From assembly GCF_019798055.1 (NCBI RefSeq), contig NZ_JAHOPH010000001.1:62001-126000 (forward strand): a stretch of 64,000 bases of DNA, given 5' to 3'. Made by a program: the position numbers and the translations under genes. Below are positions 21,013 through 39,392 of the stretch, in pieces (positions within the stretch are counted from its first letter, which is position 1; each line of letters begins with the position of its first letter). This DNA comes from Salsipaludibacter albus. Lineage in GTDB: Bacteria; Actinomycetota; Nitriliruptoria; Nitriliruptorales; Nitriliruptoraceae. The notes under the pieces were generated by a model. That model did no database searches, was not told where the DNA came from, and saw only the letters and a list, made by a program, of their open reading frames with translations.

Positions 21013-21495
21013 TCAGCGCTCGACGACCAGGACCGTGGCCCAGCAGGCGATGCCCTCGACCCGCCCGATCGCCCCGAGCCGGTCCGTCGTGGTCGCCTTG
21101 ACCGACACGGCGTCGTCCTCCACCAACAGCCCGGCCGCCAGGGCGGCTCGCACGGCGGGCAGGTGATCGGCCAGTCGCGGCTGCTGGGCGACGACCGTGG
21201 CGTCGACGTTGCCCACCCGCCACCCACGATCCGACACGGCAGCCAGGGCCGACGCCAGCAGCGTCATCGAGTCCGCCCCCGCCAGCTCCGGCGTGTCCAC
21301 CCCGAAGAACGATCCCAGGTCACCCAGCGCCAGCGCGCCCAGCAACGCATCCGTCACGGCGTGGGCCAGGACATCGGCGTCGGAGTGGCCCGCCAGCCCG
21401 TCCGTGGCCGACACCTCGTGGCCCGCCAACAGCAGCGGGCGGGGCTCGGACGAGAACGGATGGACGTCCAGGCCACTGCCGATCCGCACCGTCAT
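21013..21495 (-). CDS. ispF: 2-C-methyl-D-erythritol 2,4-cyclodiphosphate synthase
   Basis: A 160-residue enzyme of the non-mevalonate isoprenoid pathway that cyclises CDP-ME 2-phosphate with loss of CMP. The metal site is Asp9-x-His11 in GSGLDVHPF, with the second His in HSDADVLAHA; the C-terminal part has ATTTDRLGAIGRVEGIA, the nucleotide-binding and trimer-contact region. Start overlaps the ispD stop by four bases. Confidence 0.95.
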   Translation of the reverse strand: MTVRIGSGLDVHPFSSEPRPLLLAGHEVSATDGLAGHSDADVLAHAVTDALLGALALGDLGSFFGVDTPELAGADSMTLLASALAAVSDRGWRVGNVDATVVAQQPRLADHLPAVRAALAAGLLVEDDAVSVKATTTDRLGAIGRVEGIACWATVLVVER

Positions 21496-22292
21496 GTCGC
21501 GTCCCCGTCGTCAGTGACGAAGGCCAGCGCCGACGCCACCACCAGGTCGTCGGGACGGGTGATCTTCATCGCCAGCGGCGATCCGGTCGTCACGAGGACC
21601 CGACCGGGCACCAGGCCGTCGGCGACCAGGCCCTCGACCAGGGCGAGGTCGTCGGTCGCGGCGGCCCCGTCACGGGCGGCCCGGTCGTGGGCCTGCTGCA
21701 GGACGGTGCGGTGGAACACCTGCGGCGTCTGCACGGCGACCAGGTCGGCCCGCTCGACGGTCCCGACCACGCGACCACCGTCGACGCGCTTGAGCGTGTC
21801 GCCCACCGCCAGTCCCGGGGCGGCCGCCACCACGACGCCGGCTGCACCGGCGGCGCCACGCTCGTCCCCGACATCCGGGACGGCACGGGCGACGGCGGCG
21901 ACGGCCCCGGACACGGTCGACGCGGGCACGAACGCGCGGGCGGCGTCGTGGACGGCGACGACGGTGACGTCCGGTGGGAGCGCGGCCAGGCCGGCGGCGA
22001 CGGACGCGGTCCGCGTGCGCCCACCGGCGACCACCACGACGTCGTCGGCGAGGTCCTCGACCGCCCGGTCCTCCCACCCCACCGGTACGACGGCGACGAT
22101 CCGCTCGACCCCGCCGGCACGCAGCGCCGCGACGGCCCGCACCAACAGGGTCGCGCCCTCCACCTCCACGAAGGCCTTGGGCACCTCGGCGCCGAGACGC
22201 TCGCCACTGCCCCCGGCCACGACGACGCCCGCCACGGCCGCACCGGCCCCACCGGCCGCACCGCCACGGTCCACGTCGTCCTCGGGTGTCAT
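21492..22292 (-). CDS. ispD: 2-C-methyl-D-erythritol 4-phosphate cytidylyltransferase
   Basis: A 266-residue cytidylyltransferase converting MEP and CTP to CDP-methylerythritol. The nucleotide motif is VVVAGGSGERLG near residue 23; further family segments are PKAFVEVEG, VHDAARAFV and TPQVFH. An Ala/Gly-rich N-terminal extension of about 18 residues precedes the fold. The ATG overlaps the maf stop by four bases, and the gene is directly coupled to ispF. Confidence 0.93.
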   Translation of the reverse strand: MTPEDDVDRGGAAGGAGAAVAGVVVAGGSGERLGAEVPKAFVEVEGATLLVRAVAALRAGGVERIVAVVPVGWEDRAVEDLADDVVVVAGGRTRTASVAAGLAALPPDVTVVAVHDAARAFVPASTVSGAVAAVARAVPDVGDERGAAGAAGVVVAAAPGLAVGDTLKRVDGGRVVGTVERADLVAVQTPQVFHRTVLQQAHDRAARDGAAATDDLALVEGLVADGLVPGRVLVTTGSPLAMKITRPDDLVVASALAFVTDDGDAT

Positions 22293-22909
22293 GCGTCCGT
22301 CCCTGCCGTCGGCACTCGTCGCACATCCAACCCGACCGACGCCAACAGGTCGACCGCCGTCGACAGGGGGAGGCCGACCACGGTCGAGTGCAGCCCCTCC
22401 ATCGCGGTGACGAACACCCCGGCCGCACCCTGCACGGCGTACCCCCCGGCCTTGCCGTCCCATTCACCGGTCGCGAGGTACCAGTCCAGGTCGACCCCCG
22501 TCAGGGGTCGGAACTCCACGATCGTCGTGGCGACGTCGGACCGCACCGACCCGGGCACGCCATCCGGACCTGCGACGGCCACGGCGACCCCGGACCGGAC
22601 CACGTGCCGTCGGCCCGACAACGCCCGCAGCATGACCCGGGCGTCGGTGGCATCGATCGGCTTGCCGAGCACGCGATCGTCGACCGCGACGACGGTGTCG
22701 CCCGCCAGCACCACGGTGTCGACCGGGTGGCGGGAGGCGACGACCCGGGCCTTGTCGACGGCCAGCCGCCGGACCAGCGCCACCGGGTCCTCACCCCGGC
22801 GCGGGGTCTCGTCGACGTCGGCCGGGTCGACCTCCGGGAACAGTCCGACGCGGGCGAGCAGGTCACGACGACGGGGCGAGCCCGACGCCAGCACCAGTCG
22901 GGGGTTCAC
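22289..22909 (-). CDS. maf: Maf-family nucleoside triphosphate pyrophosphatase
   Basis: A 206-residue Maf/YhdE/YceF-type house-cleaning pyrophosphatase that hydrolyses non-canonical or UTP/TTP nucleotides. The N-terminal signature is LVLASGSPRRRDLLARVG, with DETPRRGEDP and VLAGDTVVAVD following. The GTG at 22909 gives the standard N-terminus; another in-frame GTG at 22927 overlaps the dusB stop and is possible. The gene sits between dusB and ispD in a tightly overlapping run. Confidence 0.9.
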   Translation of the reverse strand: MNPRLVLASGSPRRRDLLARVGLFPEVDPADVDETPRRGEDPVALVRRLAVDKARVVASRHPVDTVVLAGDTVVAVDDRVLGKPIDATDARVMLRALSGRRHVVRSGVAVAVAGPDGVPGSVRSDVATTIVEFRPLTGVDLDWYLATGEWDGKAGGYAVQGAAGVFVTAMEGLHSTVVGLPLSTAVDLLASVGLDVRRVPTAGTDA

Positions 22910-24079: not shown

Positions 24080-24586
24080 TCAGCCTGCCTCGGCCAGGCC
24101 GTGGGCGTCCGCCAGCACGGTGTTGATCTGCTCCTCGGCGGACTCCTCGTCGGTGCCGAGGGCGACCGACAGCTCCGAGAGAAGGATCTGCTTGGCCTTG
24201 GACAGCATCCGACGCTCACCGGCCGACAGGCCCTTGCCGAGCTCGCGGGTGGCGAGGTTGCGCACCACCTCGGCGACCTGGAAGATGTCGCCCGAGCGCA
24301 GCTTCTCCTGGTTGGCCTTGAACCGGCGTGACCAGTTCTTGGCGGCCTTGGTCTCGGGGGACTCCAGGATCGCGAACACCTCCGCGACCTGTGCGTCGCT
24401 GACGACCTCGCGGATGCCCACCGAGTCACACGAGTCGGTCGGGACCATGAGGGTGAGGTCCCCGTAGGTCATCCGCAGGACGAGGTAGTCCTTGGTCTCG
24501 CCCTTGAGTTCGCGCTGTTGGAGGGACTCGACGACCGCCGCACCGTGGTGGGGGTAGACGACGGTGTCACCGACGCTGTAGGCCAT
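24080..24586 (-). CDS. carD: CarD-family RNA polymerase-binding transcription regulator
   Basis: A 168-residue protein of the CarD/CdnL family. The N-terminal Tudor-like RNA-polymerase-interaction domain is MAYSVGDTVVYPHHGAA onward; the C-terminal helical DNA-binding domain includes KNWSRRFKANQEKLRSGD and GERRMLSKAKQIL. CarD stabilises open complexes at housekeeping promoters. AGGAG lies about 8 bases before the ATG at 24586. The order carD then isoprenoid genes then cysS-rlmB matches mycobacteria apart from the added dusB and maf and the later insertion. Confidence 0.95.
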   Translation of the reverse strand: MAYSVGDTVVYPHHGAAVVESLQQRELKGETKDYLVLRMTYGDLTLMVPTDSCDSVGIREVVSDAQVAEVFAILESPETKAAKNWSRRFKANQEKLRSGDIFQVAEVVRNLATRELGKGLSAGERRMLSKAKQILLSELSVALGTDEESAEEQINTVLADAHGLAEAG

Positions 24587-24927
24587 GCAGGCAGCTCCTG
24601 TGAGGATGGGGCGTGCGCGGGGTGGAACGATGACGGGCGTCGGTCCGTCGTGGTCGCCGGCAGGCATCCGTACGCGAGGTCCCGGTCGGGGACGACGTCG
24701 ACGGTGCCGCGGGGCAGACGGTCGGATCGGTCCCCACTCCACCGGGAACGTGGTGCGATGCATCCCGATCACGGTGGCTGGAAGCGTTCCCGCCGGCTGC
24801 CACGGTGCTCAGGTCACCACGGAGGAACTCCTCGTCACGGCCCTCAAACCCCGGAATTCGGGTGAATGCTGGCGCATGGTACCCCACCCACCGAGACCGC
24901 ACAATCGATCGGGCGGCGTCGGAGGCC
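24587..24927. other. 341-bp region between disA and carD, contains carD promoter
   Basis: The region holds one good minus-strand promoter near its upstream end (listed separately), which would give carD a leader of about 285 nt. No hairpin with a clear role and no extra gene are evident. An in-frame extension of carD to 24772 exists but is Arg/Pro-rich and not conserved-looking. Confidence 0.5.
24876..24904 (-). promoter_or_regulatory. sigma-A-type promoter upstream of carD
   Basis: On the minus strand TTGTGC (24904-24899) and TACCAT (24881-24876) are separated by exactly 17 bases. It lies just after the disA stop and reads toward carD, implying a leader of about 285 nt. Confidence 0.5.
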
Positions 24928-25992
24928 CTACTCGTAGTGGTTGACCAGCGTGACTTCGGCGCGGCGGTGGAGTGAATCGCGGATCCGGCGGGCCCGGGTC
25001 TCGCCGACCCCCTCGACCGCCACCAGCTCGTCGACCGACGACTCGATGATCGCCCCGAGGCTGCCGAAGGTCTTGACCAGGCGGCTGATGATGTGGCTCG
25101 GCAGGCGCGGCACCTGCGCCAGCAGGCGGTAGCCACGCGGCTGCACCGGACGGTCGATGAACTCGACGTCGTAGGCCAGCGCCGCGGCCACGTTGTCGGC
25201 GGTCAGCAGCTCGTCGGTGGTGTAGCCGTCCAGCTGGTCGCCGACACTGTCGATCGAGCGCCGGTTGTCGCCGAGGTAGTCCTGGACGATCAGCTGGCGC
25301 TCGTCCTCGACCGACGACATCAGCTCGTCGAGCTGGAGCTTGATCAGGCGACCCTCCGTGCCGAGCTCGACGATCTGGTACTGGATCTCCTGGGCGATGC
25401 GGCGGACCATCTCGGAGCGCTGCAGTGCCAGGATCACGTCCCGGAGGACGACTGCGTCCTCGACCTCGCGGGTCGACAGGTTGTTGGTGACCTCGTCGAG
25501 GCGGGCGCGGTAGCGCTCCAGGGTGGACAGCGCCTGGTTGGCTCGGAAGAGCAGGTTGGAGACCGGCTCGACGACCCGGCGGCGCTCCCCCCAGTACAGG
25601 GTGACGCGGCTCATCGACTCCGACACCGAGATCACCGGCGCGTTGGCCTGCTTGGCCGCCCGCTCGGCGGAGCGATGGCGCGTGCCCGTCTCGGAGGTGG
25701 TGATGGAGGACTCGGGGACCAGGTGCACGTTGGCCCGCACGATCCTCGCACCGGCGTCGTCGAGGATCAGCGCACCGTCCATCTTCGCCAGCTCGGCGAT
25801 CCGCTGCTCGGTCGCGGGCGTGTCGATCACGAAGCCGCCCGAGATCATCTGCTCGATGTCGTCGTTGTAGCCCAGCACGATCAGCGCGCCTCGGCCGGCG
25901 CCGATCACCCGCTCGATGCCGTCCCGGATGACCGTGCCCGGGGCGAGCCGGGCAAGGATGCTGCTGAGTTCCTCGTCGTGGTCGTTGTCCAC
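24928..25992 (-). CDS. disA: DNA integrity scanning diadenylate cyclase
   Basis: A 354-residue DisA that makes c-di-AMP from two ATP and scans DNA for branched structures. The N-terminal DAC domain has the DGALILDD (DGA) and GTRHRSAER (RHR) motifs; a long helical spine follows; the C-terminal helix-hairpin-helix is VEGVGETRARRIRDSL. GTG at 25992 has GAGG about 9 bases upstream. The upstream neighbour, where radA usually lies, encodes a helicase with a RadA-like zinc ribbon. Confidence 0.95.
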   Translation of the reverse strand: MDNDHDEELSSILARLAPGTVIRDGIERVIGAGRGALIVLGYNDDIEQMISGGFVIDTPATEQRIAELAKMDGALILDDAGARIVRANVHLVPESSITTSETGTRHRSAERAAKQANAPVISVSESMSRVTLYWGERRRVVEPVSNLLFRANQALSTLERYRARLDEVTNNLSTREVEDAVVLRDVILALQRSEMVRRIAQEIQYQIVELGTEGRLIKLQLDELMSSVEDERQLIVQDYLGDNRRSIDSVGDQLDGYTTDELLTADNVAAALAYDVEFIDRPVQPRGYRLLAQVPRLPSHIISRLVKTFGSLGAIIESSVDELVAVEGVGETRARRIRDSLHRRAEVTLVNHYE

Positions 25993-26160
25993 CCGTCGGA
26001 TCCTCGCGTCGGTCGGCTGGCCGGGGTCCGGCGACACCCGTGGTCGCGGACCGGATGGTCCGGAATGCAACCCACGCGTTGTCGCCCGGCCGCCCCCGGC
26101 ATGGCGTGCGGCCAGCATAACCGCGCCGTCGGTGCCGTCCCCGGCCGCCTGCCCCGCCGG

Positions 26161-27702
26161 TCAGGGGGACGACGCGTCCAGTGGCAGTGCCATCCAGGAC
26201 TCGACCGCCCCGGGTTCGTCTGCATCGACCTCGTCGACCCGCACCGCCACCGGCAGGACCTCGTCCAGGAACTCCTCGTGGGCGCCCTTCGAGGGGTCCT
26301 CGTGGGTGCCCACGGCATGGACGATCAGCAGCCTCGCCACGCGGTCGTCGGGCGTCCGCCGCAGGACCCGACCGAGCCGCTGGACCATCTGGCGACGGGA
26401 CCGGAACGCGGCCAGCACGATGGCGACGTCGGCGTCGGGGACGTCCACGCCCTCGTCCAGGACCCGGGGGGCGACCACGACCGGCAGGTTGCCGTTGCGG
26501 AACTGGGCCATCCGGATGCGCCGCCGTTCCGACGACAGGCCACCGTGGATGGTCTCGGCCAGCGGCCCGGCGGCCCGCATCACCGTCGCGACCTGCTCGG
26601 CCTGGTCGACCGTGTCGCAGAACACCAGGGTCTTGCGTTCGTGGAGGGTCGGTGCGACCGCGGCCGCCACCGTGAGCTTGCCGGCCGCCTGGGCGGCCGC
26701 GTCGCGCCGGGCGCGCAACTGGACCAGCCAGTCGCGCGCGACCGCCACCACCGGGTCGTCCCGCCGACGGGCCCCGCTGTCGGCCTCGCCCATCACCTCC
26801 ACCGCCGCGCGCAGGGTGTCCCGGGGGTGGCGTGGGAGGCCGTGCTCGGACAGCAGCACCCGCCGGGCGCGGCGCGCCGCACGGTCGGCGGTGTCCCACG
26901 TGGCCTGCTCGTGGTCGTCCAGCCGGGTGCCCACCAGGGCGATGGCGAAGGGCGCGATCACGCCGTCGGCGGCGGCCCGGGCGTAGCCGTAGTCGGACAC
27001 GACGGGGCCGAAGTACGGGCCGAGCACGTCCACCACGCCATCGTCGGCGCGCTCGTAGGTTGCGGTCAGGGCCAGTCGCATGGCATAGTCGTCCCGGAGC
27101 GCCCGCGACCAGGTCGGTGCGCCGTAGCGGTGTGCCTCGTCGGCGACCAACAGACCCAGTTGGCCCTCGGCCGGCACGACCGGGACGTCCGACGCCGACG
27201 CCGGCGTCGCCACCAGGACGTCGTGGGCGCCGAAGTCGTCCGCGTTGCCCCCGCCCAGGCGGCCGACCCGTGCGGTCGGCGCGTGGGCGCGCAACTCGTC
27301 CACCCACTGCGCGAGCAGCTCGAGCGTCGGGACCAGCACGAGGGCCACGCCACCACGGTCGACGACCACCCGGACGGCCGCCATCGCCAACCGGGTCTTG
27401 CCCGCACCGGTGATGGCCTCCACCACGCCGCGGCACCCGGCCGTCGCCCATGCCGCGAAGGCATCGACCTGCCACGGACGCAGCGACAGGCCGTCCAGCG
27501 GCCCGAGCGGCCCGGCCCCCGACGACGTGGTGGTGCCGTCGGGAGCATCGCCGGGGCCATCGGTGTCGTCGTCGGACGGGTCGGAACCCGTGCCGGCCTC
27601 CTCGACGGTGCCCCACGCGCCGCAGCCCGCGCATCGGCCCACCCACGTGGTGGCCGGTCGGCCGCACGCGGTGCAGACGAAGCCGGGTCCGCGGCGGGCC
27701 AC
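26161..27702 (-). CDS. SF2 DEAH helicase with RadA-like N-terminal zinc ribbon
   Basis: A 513-residue protein. Residues 7-35 are a four-Cys zinc ribbon (Cys10, Cys13, Cys24, Cys27) in the exact RadA/Sms layout, including the TWVGRCAGCGAWGTVEE run. After an acidic linker (about 36-66) comes a superfamily 2 helicase of the XPB/type III restriction-like kind: Walker A TGAGKT at 98-103, DEAH at 189-192, SAT-like TATY, motif V DEGVDVPDAD and motif VI QRLGRVLRR. It has no RecA/Lon-like RadA core. It sits upstream of disA, the usual radA position. A role in DNA repair or branch processing with DisA is inferred. Confidence 0.9.
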   Translation of the reverse strand: MARRGPGFVCTACGRPATTWVGRCAGCGAWGTVEEAGTGSDPSDDDTDGPGDAPDGTTTSSGAGPLGPLDGLSLRPWQVDAFAAWATAGCRGVVEAITGAGKTRLAMAAVRVVVDRGGVALVLVPTLELLAQWVDELRAHAPTARVGRLGGGNADDFGAHDVLVATPASASDVPVVPAEGQLGLLVADEAHRYGAPTWSRALRDDYAMRLALTATYERADDGVVDVLGPYFGPVVSDYGYARAAADGVIAPFAIALVGTRLDDHEQATWDTADRAARRARRVLLSEHGLPRHPRDTLRAAVEVMGEADSGARRRDDPVVAVARDWLVQLRARRDAAAQAAGKLTVAAAVAPTLHERKTLVFCDTVDQAEQVATVMRAAGPLAETIHGGLSSERRRIRMAQFRNGNLPVVVAPRVLDEGVDVPDADVAIVLAAFRSRRQMVQRLGRVLRRTPDDRVARLLIVHAVGTHEDPSKGAHEEFLDEVLPVAVRVDEVDADEPGAVESWMALPLDASSP

Positions 27703-27705
27703 GAC

Positions 27706-29097
27706 CTACGTGGCCGGCTGCAGGTCGACCTCGCCCCAGTCCAGGGCCGCCAGGTCGTCGGCGATGGCGGCGGCGTCGCCGACCGCGACCACGACCACGT
27801 CGTCGGTCAGGAGGTGGTCGTGGGCAGCGGCTCGGACCTCGTCGGGGGTGGCGCTGCGCAACCGTGCGAGGTGCTCGGTGGTGTGCCCGGGTGGCAGGTC
27901 GTCGCCGAGGTTCCCAGCCACCGTGGCGGCCAGCGCCTGGGGTGTCTCCAGGGACAGGGGGATCACCCCGGCGAGGTAGTCGGCCGCCCCGGCGACCTCG
28001 GCGTCGGTCGGTCCCTGCGCACCCAGCGTGCTGGCGACGTCGCGGATGATCCGCAGGGACTCGGCGGTCGTCGGCGTGTCGAACGAGCCACTCGCCAGGA
28101 CGAACAGCCCGCCACGGCGGAACGTCTGCAGGCTGGATCGCACCCCGTAGGTGAAGCCCCGCTCCTCGCGCAGGACCCCGTCCAGGCGGGAGGTCAGCGG
28201 GCCACCCAGCACGTGGGCCAGCAACCGGGTGGGTGCGCGGTCGTCCGCGTGGGTGTCGGGGCCGGCCCGAACGACCCGCAGCTCGGTCTGGACCGCGCCG
28301 GGCTGGTCGACCACCACGATGCGGGGACCGGACTGCAGCCGCAACGGGTCGGGCCGGGTCGGGGGCAGGGTGGCCGGCCCCAGTTCGCCCAGGTGACGCT
28401 CGACCAGCGCGACGACGTCCACGCCGGACAGGTCGCCCGCCACGACCACGTCGACGGGCGCCCCCACGACCACATCGCGGTGGTGGGCCACGACGTCGTC
28501 ACGGGTGAGCGCGGCCATCGTCGCGTCGTCACCGGCACCGGGCAGCGAGGCGCGGTGGTCGGGCGCCACGGCGGCCCGCCGCAGCGCCAGGTTGGCCTTG
28601 CCGGCCGGCGTCGCCAGTTCCTGGGCGAGACGGTCGCGACGCTGGCCGACCAGGCGGGCGACGTCGCGTGCCGGGAAGGTCGGGGTCAGCAGCGCCTCCC
28701 GGAGCAGGTCCAGGCCGGCTTCGAGGTGCTCGGTCGGCACCGTCACGGTCACGCGGGTGCCCCCGAAGGAGACCCGGGGGGACCAGTCGGCGCCGATGCG
28801 GTCCAGCGCCGCGGCGAAGCTGTCCCCGTCGTGGTTCTCGGTGCCCTCGTCGAGTGCACGGGCAGCGATCGTGCCGACGCCGGCCTTCGCCAGTTCCTCG
28901 GCCGTGACCGGGGCGTCGACCAGCACGGCGACCGCGACCAGCTCGCGACCGGGCAGGTCCAGCAGGTGGACGGTCGGGCCGGACGGGGCGGCCTGGGTCT
29001 GGATCGGGGGCAGGGCCCACGGTTGCGGCGGCGAGACGTCCGGGCGGGGAGCCGTCGTGACGTCGGGGCGGTCGACACGGGGGGGCTGGGGGCTCAT
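27706..29097 (-). CDS. M16-family peptidase subunit lacking the zinc motif
   Basis: A 463-residue M16 (pitrilysin/MPP-like) protein without the HxxEH zinc motif. The C-terminal half keeps the substrate-binding Arg/Tyr pair in LTSRLDGVLREERGFTYGV. Such proteins pair with an active M16 subunit. Residues 1-40 are Pro-rich and probably disordered. The ATG overlaps the stop of the active partner gene by four bases, which supports a heterodimer. Confidence 0.88.
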   Translation of the reverse strand: MSPQPPRVDRPDVTTAPRPDVSPPQPWALPPIQTQAAPSGPTVHLLDLPGRELVAVAVLVDAPVTAEELAKAGVGTIAARALDEGTENHDGDSFAAALDRIGADWSPRVSFGGTRVTVTVPTEHLEAGLDLLREALLTPTFPARDVARLVGQRRDRLAQELATPAGKANLALRRAAVAPDHRASLPGAGDDATMAALTRDDVVAHHRDVVVGAPVDVVVAGDLSGVDVVALVERHLGELGPATLPPTRPDPLRLQSGPRIVVVDQPGAVQTELRVVRAGPDTHADDRAPTRLLAHVLGGPLTSRLDGVLREERGFTYGVRSSLQTFRRGGLFVLASGSFDTPTTAESLRIIRDVASTLGAQGPTDAEVAGAADYLAGVIPLSLETPQALAATVAGNLGDDLPPGHTTEHLARLRSATPDEVRAAAHDHLLTDDVVVVAVGDAAAIADDLAALDWGEVDLQPAT

Positions 29098-30356
29098 GCG
29101 ACGTTCCTGTAGTCGAGGATGGCGCGGGCGTCGGGCCGCAGCCAGGTCGCGGCGGCGTCGCGGACCGCGGCAGGCGTGACCGCGGCCAGCCGGTCGTCGG
29201 CCCGGTCCCCCCAGGTGGCGTCACCGAACAGGGCGACCCCACGGGCGTGGTCGTCGGCCCGACCCAGCAGGGTCGCCCGGGTGTCCAGCCGGTCGCGGCG
29301 GAGCCGCTCGACCGCGCGGACCAGCTCGTCCTCGGTCGGTTCGTCCTCTGCCAGGAGCGCCACCTCCTCCTCCATCACGGCGGCCAGGTCGTCGAGGTCG
29401 CTGCCCGAGCGCGCGCGTGCCACGACCGTGGCGACGTCGACCCCACCCACCATCTCGAACGTGCCACCCGACACGGTCTCGGCCAGTTCCTCCTCGCGGA
29501 CGGCGCGGCGAACCAGTCGACTGGCCCCGCCGCCGGTCAGCACCTCGAACGCCACGACGACGGCGTCGTGGACCGGGTCACCGTCGGGCGGGACGCGCCA
29601 GGTCACGTACCGGGTCGCCGCGGGCACGGCCTCGTCGCTGTGGCGGACCTCGGTGCCGTCGCGCGGGCCGATCGCACCGTCCGGGGCCGCGGGTGGCCGG
29701 GGGTTGCCGGTGATCCCGCCGAACCAGCGGCCGGCCGCCTCGGTCGCCGCGTCCACGGCGACGTCGCCCGCGATGGACAGCACCGCGTTGTGGGGCGAGT
29801 AGTGCGCCAGGAAGAACCGGTGGACGTCGTCCAGGTCGGCGGCGTCGAGGTCGGCCATCGACCCGATCGGCAGGTGGTGGTAGGGATGGCCCTCCGGGAA
29901 GAGGATCACGAACAGTTCCTCCCAGGCGGTCCCGTAGGGCTGGTTGTCGTAGCGCTGGCGACGCTCGTTCTTGACGACGTCGCGCTGGTTGTCGAGGTTG
30001 GCCTGGTCGAGGGCGTCGAGCAGCGTGCCCATGCGGTCGGCCTCCAGCCACAGGGCCAGGTCGAAGGCCCGGGTCGGCACGGTCTCGTAGTAGTTGGTGC
30101 GGTCGAACGACGTGGTCCCGTTGAGGGTGCCGCCGACGGACTGGATGGCGGCGAAGTGGCCGGTGGCGTCGACGTTGCGCGAGCCCTGGAACATCAGGTG
30201 CTCGAACAGGTGGGCGAAGCCGGTCCGCCCGGACTCCTCGTGGCGCGACCCCACGTCGTACCAGAGCTCGACCGCCACGGCCGGGACCAGGTGATCCGGT
30301 GCGACGACGACCCGCAGGCCGTTGTCCAACGTCGTGGTGACGGGCGTGGCGGGCAT
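29094..30356 (-). CDS. M16-family zinc peptidase, active subunit
   Basis: A 420-residue metallopeptidase with the inverted zinc motif HLFEH near residue 49-53 (FAHLFEHLMFQGS) and a downstream Glu in VVKNERRQRYDNQPYG as third ligand. The family degrades peptides or processes precursors in a clam-like chamber. There is no signal peptide, so it is probably cytoplasmic. ATG at 30356 begins the family-typical TTLDNGLRVVV region. It is coupled to the non-catalytic M16 gene downstream and lies after an ABC exporter operon. Confidence 0.92.
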   Translation of the reverse strand: MPATPVTTTLDNGLRVVVAPDHLVPAVAVELWYDVGSRHEESGRTGFAHLFEHLMFQGSRNVDATGHFAAIQSVGGTLNGTTSFDRTNYYETVPTRAFDLALWLEADRMGTLLDALDQANLDNQRDVVKNERRQRYDNQPYGTAWEELFVILFPEGHPYHHLPIGSMADLDAADLDDVHRFFLAHYSPHNAVLSIAGDVAVDAATEAAGRWFGGITGNPRPPAAPDGAIGPRDGTEVRHSDEAVPAATRYVTWRVPPDGDPVHDAVVVAFEVLTGGGASRLVRRAVREEELAETVSGGTFEMVGGVDVATVVARARSGSDLDDLAAVMEEEVALLAEDEPTEDELVRAVERLRRDRLDTRATLLGRADDHARGVALFGDATWGDRADDRLAAVTPAAVRDAAATWLRPDARAILDYRNVA

Positions 30357-30430
30357 GCAGGCTCCCCGGCGAGGCGGTCGTGACCGGCCGGCCACGGTAC
30401 ATCGCGCGACCGCCCGTCGGCAGGCCGGCC

Positions 30431-32952
30431 CTAGCCGGTGCGGATCGCCTCGAGCGGGTCCAGCCGGGCGGCGCGGCGTGCGGGGTAGACCGACGCGAGC
30501 ACGCCGACCACGACCCCGAGGACCAGGGTCACGCCCAGTTGCCACCACGGCCACGTGAACGCGCCCTCGAGCACGACGCGTGCGACCGCGAACGCCACGC
30601 CGACCCCCAGGACCGCACCCGTCACGGTCCCCACGATCGATGTCAGCAACGCCTCGGTGCGGATCATGCGGCGCAGCTGGGACCGCGTCATGCCGACCGA
30701 ACGCATCAGCCCCAGCTCGCGGGTCCGCTCGGCGATCGCCAGCACCAGCGTGTTGAGGATCCCGAACAGGGCGATCACCACGGCGACGCCCAGCAGCGCG
30801 CCGACCGCGGACAGCAGGAAGTTGAAGAAGGTCCGGACCACCGAGACGATCTGGTTGGCGTCGATGACGTCGACCCCGGCATAGTCGTCGGCCACGGCCT
30901 CGACGCCGGTCCGGGCGGTCTCGATGTTGGCGCCGTCGTCGTAGCGGACCGAGGCGGACAGGACCGGCTGTGGGCCGATGGTGTCCTCCACGACCGTGCG
31001 TGACAGCACGGCCGGCGGGATCTCGAAGCTGAAGCCCGACAGGGCGGTGACCTCGACGTCCAGCGGGGTCCCGTCGACCAGCACCACCGCCACCTCGTCG
31101 CCGATCCCCACCCCGGCCGCCGTCGCGATCTCGCCGGCCAGCACCATCCCGTCCGGGTCGACCTCGCCCTGGGTGACCTCGAGGCCCAGCACGTCGGTCA
31201 GCTGCGACACGTCGGCGGCGGCGACCGGCAGGCCGCCACCCCCGAACTGGGGTCCGCCCATCTCGAGCTCGAGGCTGCCCACGATCGTGTTGACCTCGGC
31301 GACCTCGTCGACGCCGTCGACCGCCCGGAGGTCGGCGAGGAACTCCGGTGGCAGGCCCTGCTCGCTGCCCGAGCTGACCGACACGTCGGCGCCCGACAGC
31401 TGCTCGAGCTGGCCGATGGCGAAGTCGCGGATCGCGCCACCGGCCGCGGTGACGAACACGACCAGGAACACGCCGATGACCAGGGCGTTGGCCGTGGCCG
31501 CCGTGCGACGGGCGTTGCGGTCGACCTCGGCCACGGCGATCTCGTCGGCCGCCGACAGGCGTCCCAGCGGGCCGCGCAGGCGTCGGGCCACCCACGACAC
31601 GACGGTCGGGCCGCCCACGATGACGCCGACGAGCAGCAGCGTGGCACCACCGCCCAGCAGCAGGGCGATCGAGCCGATCGAGCCCGCGACCAGGGCGACC
31701 ACGCCCAGCGCCAGCAGCGCCACACCGGTGATCGAGCGTCCCAGCGAGATCGGCTTGATGGTGGGGTCGGCGTCGCGCATCGCCTCGACCGGCCGGGTGC
31801 GCGACGCCCGCCAGGCGGGGATGAACGCGCTGACCACGGTCACCACGACGCCGGACAGGACGACCTGCAGCATCGCCAGGGGTCGCACCGTCAGCGTGGC
31901 CAACCCTGCCAGCGCCGGGATCAGCAGGATCGCCAGGCCGACCAGCACCACGCCCAGGAGGGCCCCGGCCAGCGATGCGACCAGGGACACCACGAGCGCC
32001 TCGACCCGCACGGCGCGTCGGACCTGCCGCGACGAGGTGCCCAGTGCCCGCAGCAGGGCGAACTCGCGGGTGCGCTGGGCGACGATCGTGGTGAAGGTGT
32101 TGAAGATGATCAGTGCCCCGACCACCAGCGCCAGGTAGGCGAACGCCTGCAGTCCGATGCCCAGGGCGTCGGCGATCCCGGCGGCGGCACCGGCCTCGCG
32201 ATCGCGCAGGTCGTCGCCCGACAGCACCTGTGCCTCCGGTCCGGCGACGTCGGCGACCGCGCTGCGGACCACGGCCGGGTCCGCCCCTTCCTCGATGCCG
32301 CCCAGCACGGTCGACCAACCCCGGTCCTCGAGCCCGGTGAAGCGCTGGCCGTCAGCCCGGGAGACCAGCACGTCGGCCTCGCCGCGGGCGGACTGCTGGC
32401 CGAACGTGGACAGGCCGACCACCGTCACCTCGGCCGGGCCGGTGCGCGACGTCACGGTGGTGGCGTCGCCCACGTCGATGCCGACGGCGGCAGCCGTGTC
32501 GACGTCCAAGGCGATCTCGCCCGCCGCGGTCGGCAGGCGTCCCGACTCGAGGTCCCACGGGGTGAGGGGGTCATCGACGACCACCCAGGCCGTGCCCCCG
32601 ATCGGATCGTCCACGTCTGGCACCGACAGCTCGACACTGGACGACGACTCGCCGATGGCCGAGCTGATCCCGTCCACGGCCGCGATCTCGTCGACGATCC
32701 CGAGGTCCAGCCCCGAGCTCGCCTCGAGTCCGAACTCGGCGGATGGGTCGTCGGGGTCCACGGCGGGCTCGACCGCGACGTCCACGTCCCCCAGCGCCGC
32801 GACGGCGTTGCTGGTCAGGGCGTTGGCCAACGAGTCCCGCAGGACCAGCGCCGAGGACAGGAAGGTGGTCGCGACGACCACTGCGAGCAGGGTCCCCAGG
32901 AACCGCGCCGGGTTGGCCCGGACGGTCCGCCAGGCGATCGTGGCCAGCGTCA

Positions 32953-32953
<1 letters not shown>
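30431..32953 (-). CDS. FtsX/MacB-type ABC transporter permease
   Basis: An 840-residue permease with duplicated FtsX/MacB architecture: membrane helix at residues about 16-38, a large extracytoplasmic domain, three central helices, a second long helix near 490, a second periplasmic-type domain, and three C-terminal helices ending VLASVYPARRAARLDPLEAIRTG in pieces typical of the family. These permeases use mechanotransmission to export lipids, lipoproteins or peptides. The ATG at 32953 shares one base with the stop of the ATPase gene (TGATG). Confidence 0.92.
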
Positions 32954-33720
<767 letters not shown>

Positions 33721-33880
33721 GGCGACACTCGTCGGGTCGGTGGCGAGTCGGTGCGGGTGGTCGAGCGGGGTGGCGGGGTCGATCACCGTCCGGGCGGACG
33801 GTAGCGATCGCGTCCCGGGGACGGCCCACGGGATCTCCCGCCTGCCACCCCGAGACGACCCCGAGACGACCCGGCAGGGA

Positions 33881-34735
33881 TCAGCCGGGCAGGCGGACCA
33901 GGTCGTCGTCGACCACGGCCAGGCCGTCCGCCACGACACCGGCCAGCATGGCCGCCACGCGGTCGGGATCGTCCCAGTCGACCACGTCCGCGACCGCCTC
34001 GCGTGCCACGGGGCCGGAGGCGAGCGCAGCGACCAGCCGGCCACGCCCCTGGCGGTCCGAGCCCTCGAAGGTCGACTGTGGCGTGGTGGTGAAGGCCGTC
34101 CCGGTCACCGGGTCCGGTCCGCCCCGTTCCCGCCAGGCGCACGTCACCGCGACCCGGCAGGAGCCGCAGTCGGGCGACCGCTTCGTGCAGGTCGTCGCAC
34201 CGTGCTCCATGACCGCCTGGTTGTAGGCCCACGACCGGCCGTCGGGCACCAGGTCGTCGGCCAGCGCCTGGACCTCGCGTGCCCCGAGCGAGCGCCCGGC
34301 CACGGCGCGCGCGAGCACGCGTGCGACGTTGGTGTCCACGACCCCGTGGTGCTGCTCGTGGGCGAAGACCGCCACCGCCCGGGCCGTGTACGGCCCGACG
34401 CCCGGCAGCGCCAGCAGGTCGTCGAGGTCGTCGGGGACCTCGCCGTCGTGGTCGGCCACGATCGCGGTGGCGGCACGGTGCAGGTTGACGGCCCGGCGGT
34501 TGTAGCCCAGGCCCTGCCACAGGGCGATGACCTCACCGACCGAGGCGTCGGCACAGTCGGCCGGCGTCGGGAACCGTGCGAGGAACTGGTGGAAGCGGGG
34601 CACGACCCGGGTGGTCTGGGTCTGCTGGAGCATCGTCTCGCTGACCAGCACGGCCCACCCGTCACGGGTCCGGCGCCACGGGAAGTCCCGCAGGTCCTCC
34701 GACAGGGCGAGGACGGCGTCGACGAACGCCACCAC
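33881..34735 (-). CDS. mutY: A/G-specific adenine glycosylase, short form
   Basis: A 284-residue MutY that removes adenine mispaired with 8-oxoguanine. The catalytic Glu is in SETMLQQTQ, the helix-hairpin-helix is LPGVGPYTARAV, the catalytic Asp follows in VVDTNVARV, and the iron-sulfur loop is C-x6-C-x2-C-x5-C (CTKRSPDCGSCRVAVTC). The C-terminal NUDIX-like 8-oxoG recognition domain is missing; about 80 residues of other sequence follow the cluster. The start is 5 bp from the DtxR-family stop. Confidence 0.92.
   Translation of the reverse strand: MVAFVDAVLALSEDLRDFPWRRTRDGWAVLVSETMLQQTQTTRVVPRFHQFLARFPTPADCADASVGEVIALWQGLGYNRRAVNLHRAATAIVADHDGEVPDDLDDLLALPGVGPYTARAVAVFAHEQHHGVVDTNVARVLARAVAGRSLGAREVQALADDLVPDGRSWAYNQAVMEHGATTCTKRSPDCGSCRVAVTCAWRERGGPDPVTGTAFTTTPQSTFEGSDRQGRGRLVAALASGPVAREAVADVVDWDDPDRVAAMLAGVVADGLAVVDDDLVRLPG

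Positions 34736-36854: not shown

Positions 36855-39392
<2,538 letters not shown>

Follow-up and report, generated by a model that had tools for sequence, protein, structure and literature searches.

A RadA-type zinc ribbon joined to an XPB-type helicase core in the chromosomal position of radA beside disA in Salsipaludibacter albus

The analysed stretch of DNA (the window, 64,000 nucleotides of a Salsipaludibacter albus contig) contained, on its minus strand, a gene with a GTG start codon (frame 27702 to 26161) that encoded a RadA-type zinc ribbon, a linker and an SF2 helicase core in a single open frame. The gene and its parts were as follows:

26161..27702, minus strand: ribbon-helicase fusion gene, 513 aa (orthologue in genome G030 81% identical)
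27598..27681, minus strand: RadA-type C4 zinc ribbon, residues 8-35, with Cys10, Cys13, Cys24 and Cys27 (PF18073, E 1.2e-7; TIGR00416; ribbon profile built from RadA proteins of the class)
27505..27597, minus strand: Gly/Asp/Ser-rich linker, residues 36-66, predicted to be disordered (AF2 pLDDT)
26245..27504, minus strand: SF2 helicase core of the XPB type, residues 67-486 (ResIII, Helicase_C, ERCC3_RAD25_C; archaeal XPB II structures)
27394..27411, minus strand: Walker A motif TGAGKT, residues 98-103 (T98, G99, G101, K102 and T103 invariant in 26 orthologues)
27130..27141, minus strand: DEAH box, residues 188-191 (D188, E189, A190 and H191 invariant in 26 orthologues)
26359..26382, minus strand: motif VI QRLGRVLR, residues 441-448 (Q441 to R448 invariant in 26 orthologues)

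An earlier, sequence-only reading had described a RadA-like ribbon with cysteines at residues 10, 13, 24 and 27, followed by a helicase with Walker A at 98-103 and DEAH at 189-192. The cysteines and the Walker A motif were found at these positions, and the DEAH box one residue earlier. The RadA-like nature of the ribbon was confirmed by PF18073, the zinc ribbon common to RadA and LapB, which matched above its cut-off in Pfam, and by the RadA profile TIGR00416, which aligned to the ribbon only (profile positions 4-37, 26.9 bits). Outside the ribbon, Pfam detected ResIII, DEAD, Helicase_C and ERCC3_RAD25_C (the XPB C-terminal helicase domain), which bore out the description of an SF2 helicase instead of a RadA core. 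The KNRFG motif of the RadA core was absent from the translation, and Pfam gave no match to the Lon-protease-like C-terminal domain of RadA. In the AF2 model, the ribbon was predicted with low confidence and pLDDT was below 50 across residues 29-65. The same fusion architecture was present in G030 (MAG LH_M21; loci L004/L033), another genome of the genus, in which all four cysteines were retained; both proteins carried the W.G.C..C..W signature.

The fusion thus resembled RadA/Sms in its N-terminal C4 ribbon with W.G.C..C..W, which a variable linker connects to a DNA motor, and in its place beside disA, but differed in the motor itself, which was of the SF2 XPB type and not a RecA/DnaB-type ATPase. 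By both sequence and fold, the closest solved structures were XPB and archaeal XPB II (6p4f, 5tnu). Superposition on 6p4f, archaeal XPB II with forked DNA, gave TM scores of 0.61/0.71 and an rmsd of 3.7, and fold alignments with XPB structures showed 26-27% identity. Walker A, DEAH and motif VI were all present and invariant in the 26 orthologues. Unlike XPB, the orthologues carried an N-terminal ribbon or winged-helix-like segment, and the fusion scored 102.3 bits on the NCBIfam model repair_heli_XPB, against a cut-off of 610. Escherichia coli RadD (YejH) is another bacterial SF2 protein of the XPB-like, stand-alone kind; it acts with RecA and has a zinc finger, known here from its published description (PMC8887467). 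The fusion differed from it in its chromosomal slot and in its weak sequence similarity (26.8 bits on the RadD NCBIfam equivalog, cut-off 720). The highest-scoring homologues of the core were PbeA in PADLOC (203 bits; PADLOC gives no cut-off) and dnd_restrict_1 in NCBIfam (142.5 bits against a cut-off of 600). Compared with PbeA and DNA-phosphorothioation restriction helicases, the fusion was shorter, scored far below the NCBIfam cut-off and had no linked system in view. A phage or plasmid origin of the helicase was rejected, as phage and plasmid matches were all below 60% identity and mostly partial. Two of the plasmid matches (H1 and H3) carried a sigma-70 factor annotation beneath the helicase match, and a distant helicase homologue (L175, genome G073) shared one open frame with a sigma-70-like factor.

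For comparison, 66 genomes of the Nitriliruptoria-like class were each searched for the helicase and for RadA. Across these genomes, PF18073 matches above cut-off were limited to RadA proteins, the two fusions and a single ribbon fragment from a short contig of G041. A profile built from the RadA ribbons of relatives matched two of 32 helicase orthologues, both of them fusions (E about 1e-10; 32.6 bits for the window fusion). Comparison with RadA ribbons of the class, which had been proposed as a check, showed 16 identical residues among 28 positions, including W.G.C..C..W. Because this ribbon type was otherwise confined to RadA and the G041 fragment, and because of the shared residues, the source of the ribbon was very probably RadA. 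Between the two fusion genomes, dN/dS was about 0.29 for the ribbon and 0.16 for the core; with few sites, this indicated moderate constraint on the ribbon.

Outside the window's genus, orthologues with a readable N-terminus instead began with a segment of 60-70 residues, whose model showed three helices and a beta-hairpin and resembled a winged helix. No Pfam family matched this segment, so that the model and the pattern are the basis for calling it a winged helix. Comparable N-terminal segments were seen by eye in three distant homologues (L173, L174, L177). The one exception, in a 2.1 Mb assembly of family f4 (L070, G061), had a short, unrelated N-terminus and lay on a long branch. Since nearly all other orthologues carried the winged-helix-like segment at that place, the ribbon is most simply a derived state, a graft limited to one genus. 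Its capture is well supported. The time order implied by the earlier description of the ribbon as a preserved module is therefore doubtful: the widespread form of the helicase has the winged-helix-like N-terminus, and the ribbon is found in one genus only.

The genes that mark the chromosomal slot of the fusion were:

24928..26118, minus strand: disA, DNA-integrity-scanning diadenylate cyclase, next gene downstream of the fusion (NF010009, 442 bits)
24080..24772, minus strand: carD, slot landmark (CarD_C, CarD_TRCF_RID)
21492..22463, minus strand: ispD, slot landmark (TIGR00453, slightly under cut-off)
21013..21495, minus strand: open reading frame that we take to be ispF-like from its sequence and gene order, slot landmark (tblastn synteny with relatives)
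27706..29097, minus strand: M16 peptidase gene between mutY and the helicase (Peptidase_M16, M16_C; in this genus only, not found in other slots of family f1)
33881..34735, minus strand: mutY-like gene, upstream slot landmark (TIGR01084, 198 bits, below cut-off)
36855..39392, minus strand: clpC-like Clp ATPase gene, further upstream landmark (ClpB/ClpA-class models, below cut-off)

Most RadA-bearing loci that were read had the order RadA-DisA-CarD-IspD-IspF, and in G016, a member of the window's own family f1, this was MutY-RadA-DisA-CarD-IspD-IspF. The f1 genomes read in detail showed a MutY-like gene, the helicase and DisA in this order, with CarD and IspD/F beyond. What we take by eye to be the MutY-like gene stood immediately before RadA in G016 and before the helicase in G010, and G016 and G015 had a close counterpart of the clpC-like gene on the upstream side of the slot. 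Both the MutY-like and the Clp-like gene were retained upstream of the helicase in the window; mutY was separated from it by a stretch (27706-34044) not seen in other f1 slots, which encodes an ABC transporter/FtsX-like permease and two M16 peptidases. One f3 genome (G046) contained two RadA-DisA-CarD-IspD-IspF blocks (L096 and L097). The helicase of the window thus occupied the position beside disA that RadA has in G016, with the same MutY, DisA, CarD, IspD and IspF flanks, as the sequence-only reading had supposed.

A survey of relatives showed from coordinates that the helicase adjoined disA in 27 genomes, in radA's slot wherever flanks were read. As slot occupancy was conserved to this extent, the adjacency is not due to chance. 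A tblastn search that used RadA as query detected no RadA remnant at helicase-slot loci. Genus g5 had an empty slot (Clp-MutY-DisA in G015), with the helicase sited elsewhere. In f4, and among the f5 genomes lacking RadA, DisA had no RadA or helicase gene next to it. The f4 helicases lie near proteins that, as judged by eye, resemble SmpB and SelD.

The helicase tree, which did not perfectly match the species tree, grouped the window's genus with f4 and f5 (support 95/87). A second, independent arrival of the helicase in the slot was considered and rejected: one slot clade was compatible with the helicase tree (AU p 0.294), and the DisA-CarD-IspDF tree recovered one such clade (support 97/93). 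A single entry was therefore kept as the simpler account. None of the 66 class genomes carried both radA and the helicase; as a guess, a RadA-helicase-DisA array that underwent a deletion might, for example, have given rise to the fusion.

A search for a full radA elsewhere in the S. albus genome (97% complete) yielded no RadA match above the cut-off of TIGR00416. The other match to this profile (L001) was by eye a DnaB-like ATPase, not RecA or RadA, and was discarded as a second RadA copy. Over the class, 40 genomes had the helicase (39 strong matches and, in G022, a fragment at a contig edge beside disA), 20 had RadA and six, all of them incomplete (53-78%), had neither. Within f1, RadA was found in G016 only (98% complete), which had no helicase. 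All five f4 genomes had the helicase and lacked RadA, and f5 comprised three genomes with the helicase and one with RadA (G063), whose sister in genus g35 (G062) had the helicase. On the tree of DisA, CarD, IspD and IspF, the switch between RadA and helicase amounted to four changes. In each of the four independent contrasts the two genes went in opposite directions (sign test p 0.125, the lowest value that four contrasts allow).

RecG was present in 66 of 66 genomes, and RecA and RuvB were found in the S. albus genome, which indicates that the pathway exists and that the missing part is RadA. In the wider actinobacteria, about 30% of sampled genomes lacked RadA, and most of these also lacked the helicase, so that RadA can be lost without it. 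Moreover, RadA was present alongside distant homologues of the helicase in six of eight cases within the phylum. Together with the frequency of RadA-less genomes, this indicated that the exclusion holds for this class only. Within the class, replacement in place of RadA by an XPB-type helicase is well supported.

In Streptococcus pneumoniae RadA, the four cysteines are needed for interaction with RecA and for oriented loading at three-way junctions (PMC5512693). In Bacillus subtilis, disA and radA share one operon (PMC10804225) and their products interact physically and regulate each other, and a C4-motif mutant of RadA (C13A) retains DisA binding and inhibition of the cyclase, and loses the interaction with RecA (PMC8645862). 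These results link the ribbon to RecA rather than to DisA and do not support the earlier proposal that it preserved contact with DisA. That proposal also conflicts with the 25 of 27 helicase-disA genomes outside the window's genus, in which every orthologue with a readable N-terminus lacked the ribbon. Contact with RecA being the known function of this module, the fusion would most simply be read as a RecA-directed SF2 translocase.

We propose, at a probability of about 0.5, that an XPB-type SF2 translocase displaced RadA in this lineage and performs its post-synaptic job, and that one genus gained a RecA-docking tip. The translocase sits in the radA slot, and no radA was detected in its genome. 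It would move or extend branches and remodel stalled forks once RecA has carried out strand invasion, and would be functionally linked to the DisA checkpoint. The ribbon may dock the motor to RecA, so that it is loaded in the correct orientation where RecA has made a three-way junction. Sister genera would rely on the winged helix, which would load the motor through direct DNA binding. That an XPB-like SF2 protein can act with RecA is known from E. coli RadD, which speeds RecA strand exchange; RadA is no substitute for RadD in E. coli (PMC8887467). Replacement of RadA in function is a reasoned bet. More tentative is the fuller version of the proposal, in which the translocase succeeded RadA in both position and activity alongside DisA and RecA, and one genus captured the ribbon of the replaced gene as a portable RecA-docking module. 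Exact mechanistic equivalence is unlikely, since RadA is a hexameric DnaB-type helicase and XPB/RadD-type enzymes are SF2 translocases.

Several other explanations were weighed. The genome is a draft in 79 contigs and the gene starts with GTG, features that might suggest an artefact of assembly or start-site choice; this was ruled out for practical purposes by the independent G030 genome, which encodes the same in-frame fusion at 81% identity. The ribbon also lies inside the single open frame, 4 bases upstream of which the M16 gene stops. An anti-phage or phosphorothioation-linked helicase, kin to PbeA and Dnd restriction, would account for the top PADLOC and NCBIfam matches, but is highly improbable: the NCBIfam score was far under its cut-off, the nearest solved relatives were XPB proteins, and a single close orthologue occurred per genome, family-wide, amid the DisA-CarD-IspDF housekeeping genes. 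No defence neighbours were noticed in the loci read, nor were pbe or dnd genes noticed on reading the window and the f4/f5 loci. That the ribbon is instead a DisA-contact module, kept from RadA and coupling the helicase to DisA, is improbable. The conserved adjacency and the B. subtilis RadA-DisA interaction, mutual regulation and shared operon are in its favour, but the C13A mutation lies in the ribbon and spares DisA, and other helicases adjoining disA have no ribbon.

We consider it unlikely, though worth serious attention, that the pattern is correlation only, with a housekeeping XPB-like translocase of repair or transcription-coupled function, independent loss of RadA, a permissive slot, and a ribbon derived from radA debris. 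Such an account fits the commonness of RadA loss in the phylum, the siting of the helicase away from disA in f4, f5 and g5, and the small number of independent switches. It is harder to reconcile with the complete absence of genomes with both genes, the switch between G063 and G062, which belong to one genus, the placement of the helicase exactly between radA's former neighbours, and the retention of the ribbon cysteines and signature in both fusion genomes.

RadA is described as present in almost all eubacteria (PMC4786428), and its zinc tip is not resolved in published structures (PMC11612176). The fusion separates this tip from the ring motor: a natural protein bears the RadA tip on a wholly different motor. 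Should the ribbon bind RecA in the fusion, it would be a RecA adaptor sufficient in itself. Should the helicase stand in for RadA, no hexameric ring would be needed for post-synaptic branch extension, DisA could pair with a different enzyme, and two unrelated motors would be able to carry out one and the same repair task. Within a single class, the ribbon, winged-helix and RadA forms and the empty slot together provide a comparative set.

The RecA of many f1 genomes (among others G012, G009, G016, G006, G017, G022, G023, G029 and G033) gave matches split at around positions 66 and 201 within frames of roughly 730-1675 aa, which suggests RecA inteins; the RecA of the S. albus genome was uninterrupted.
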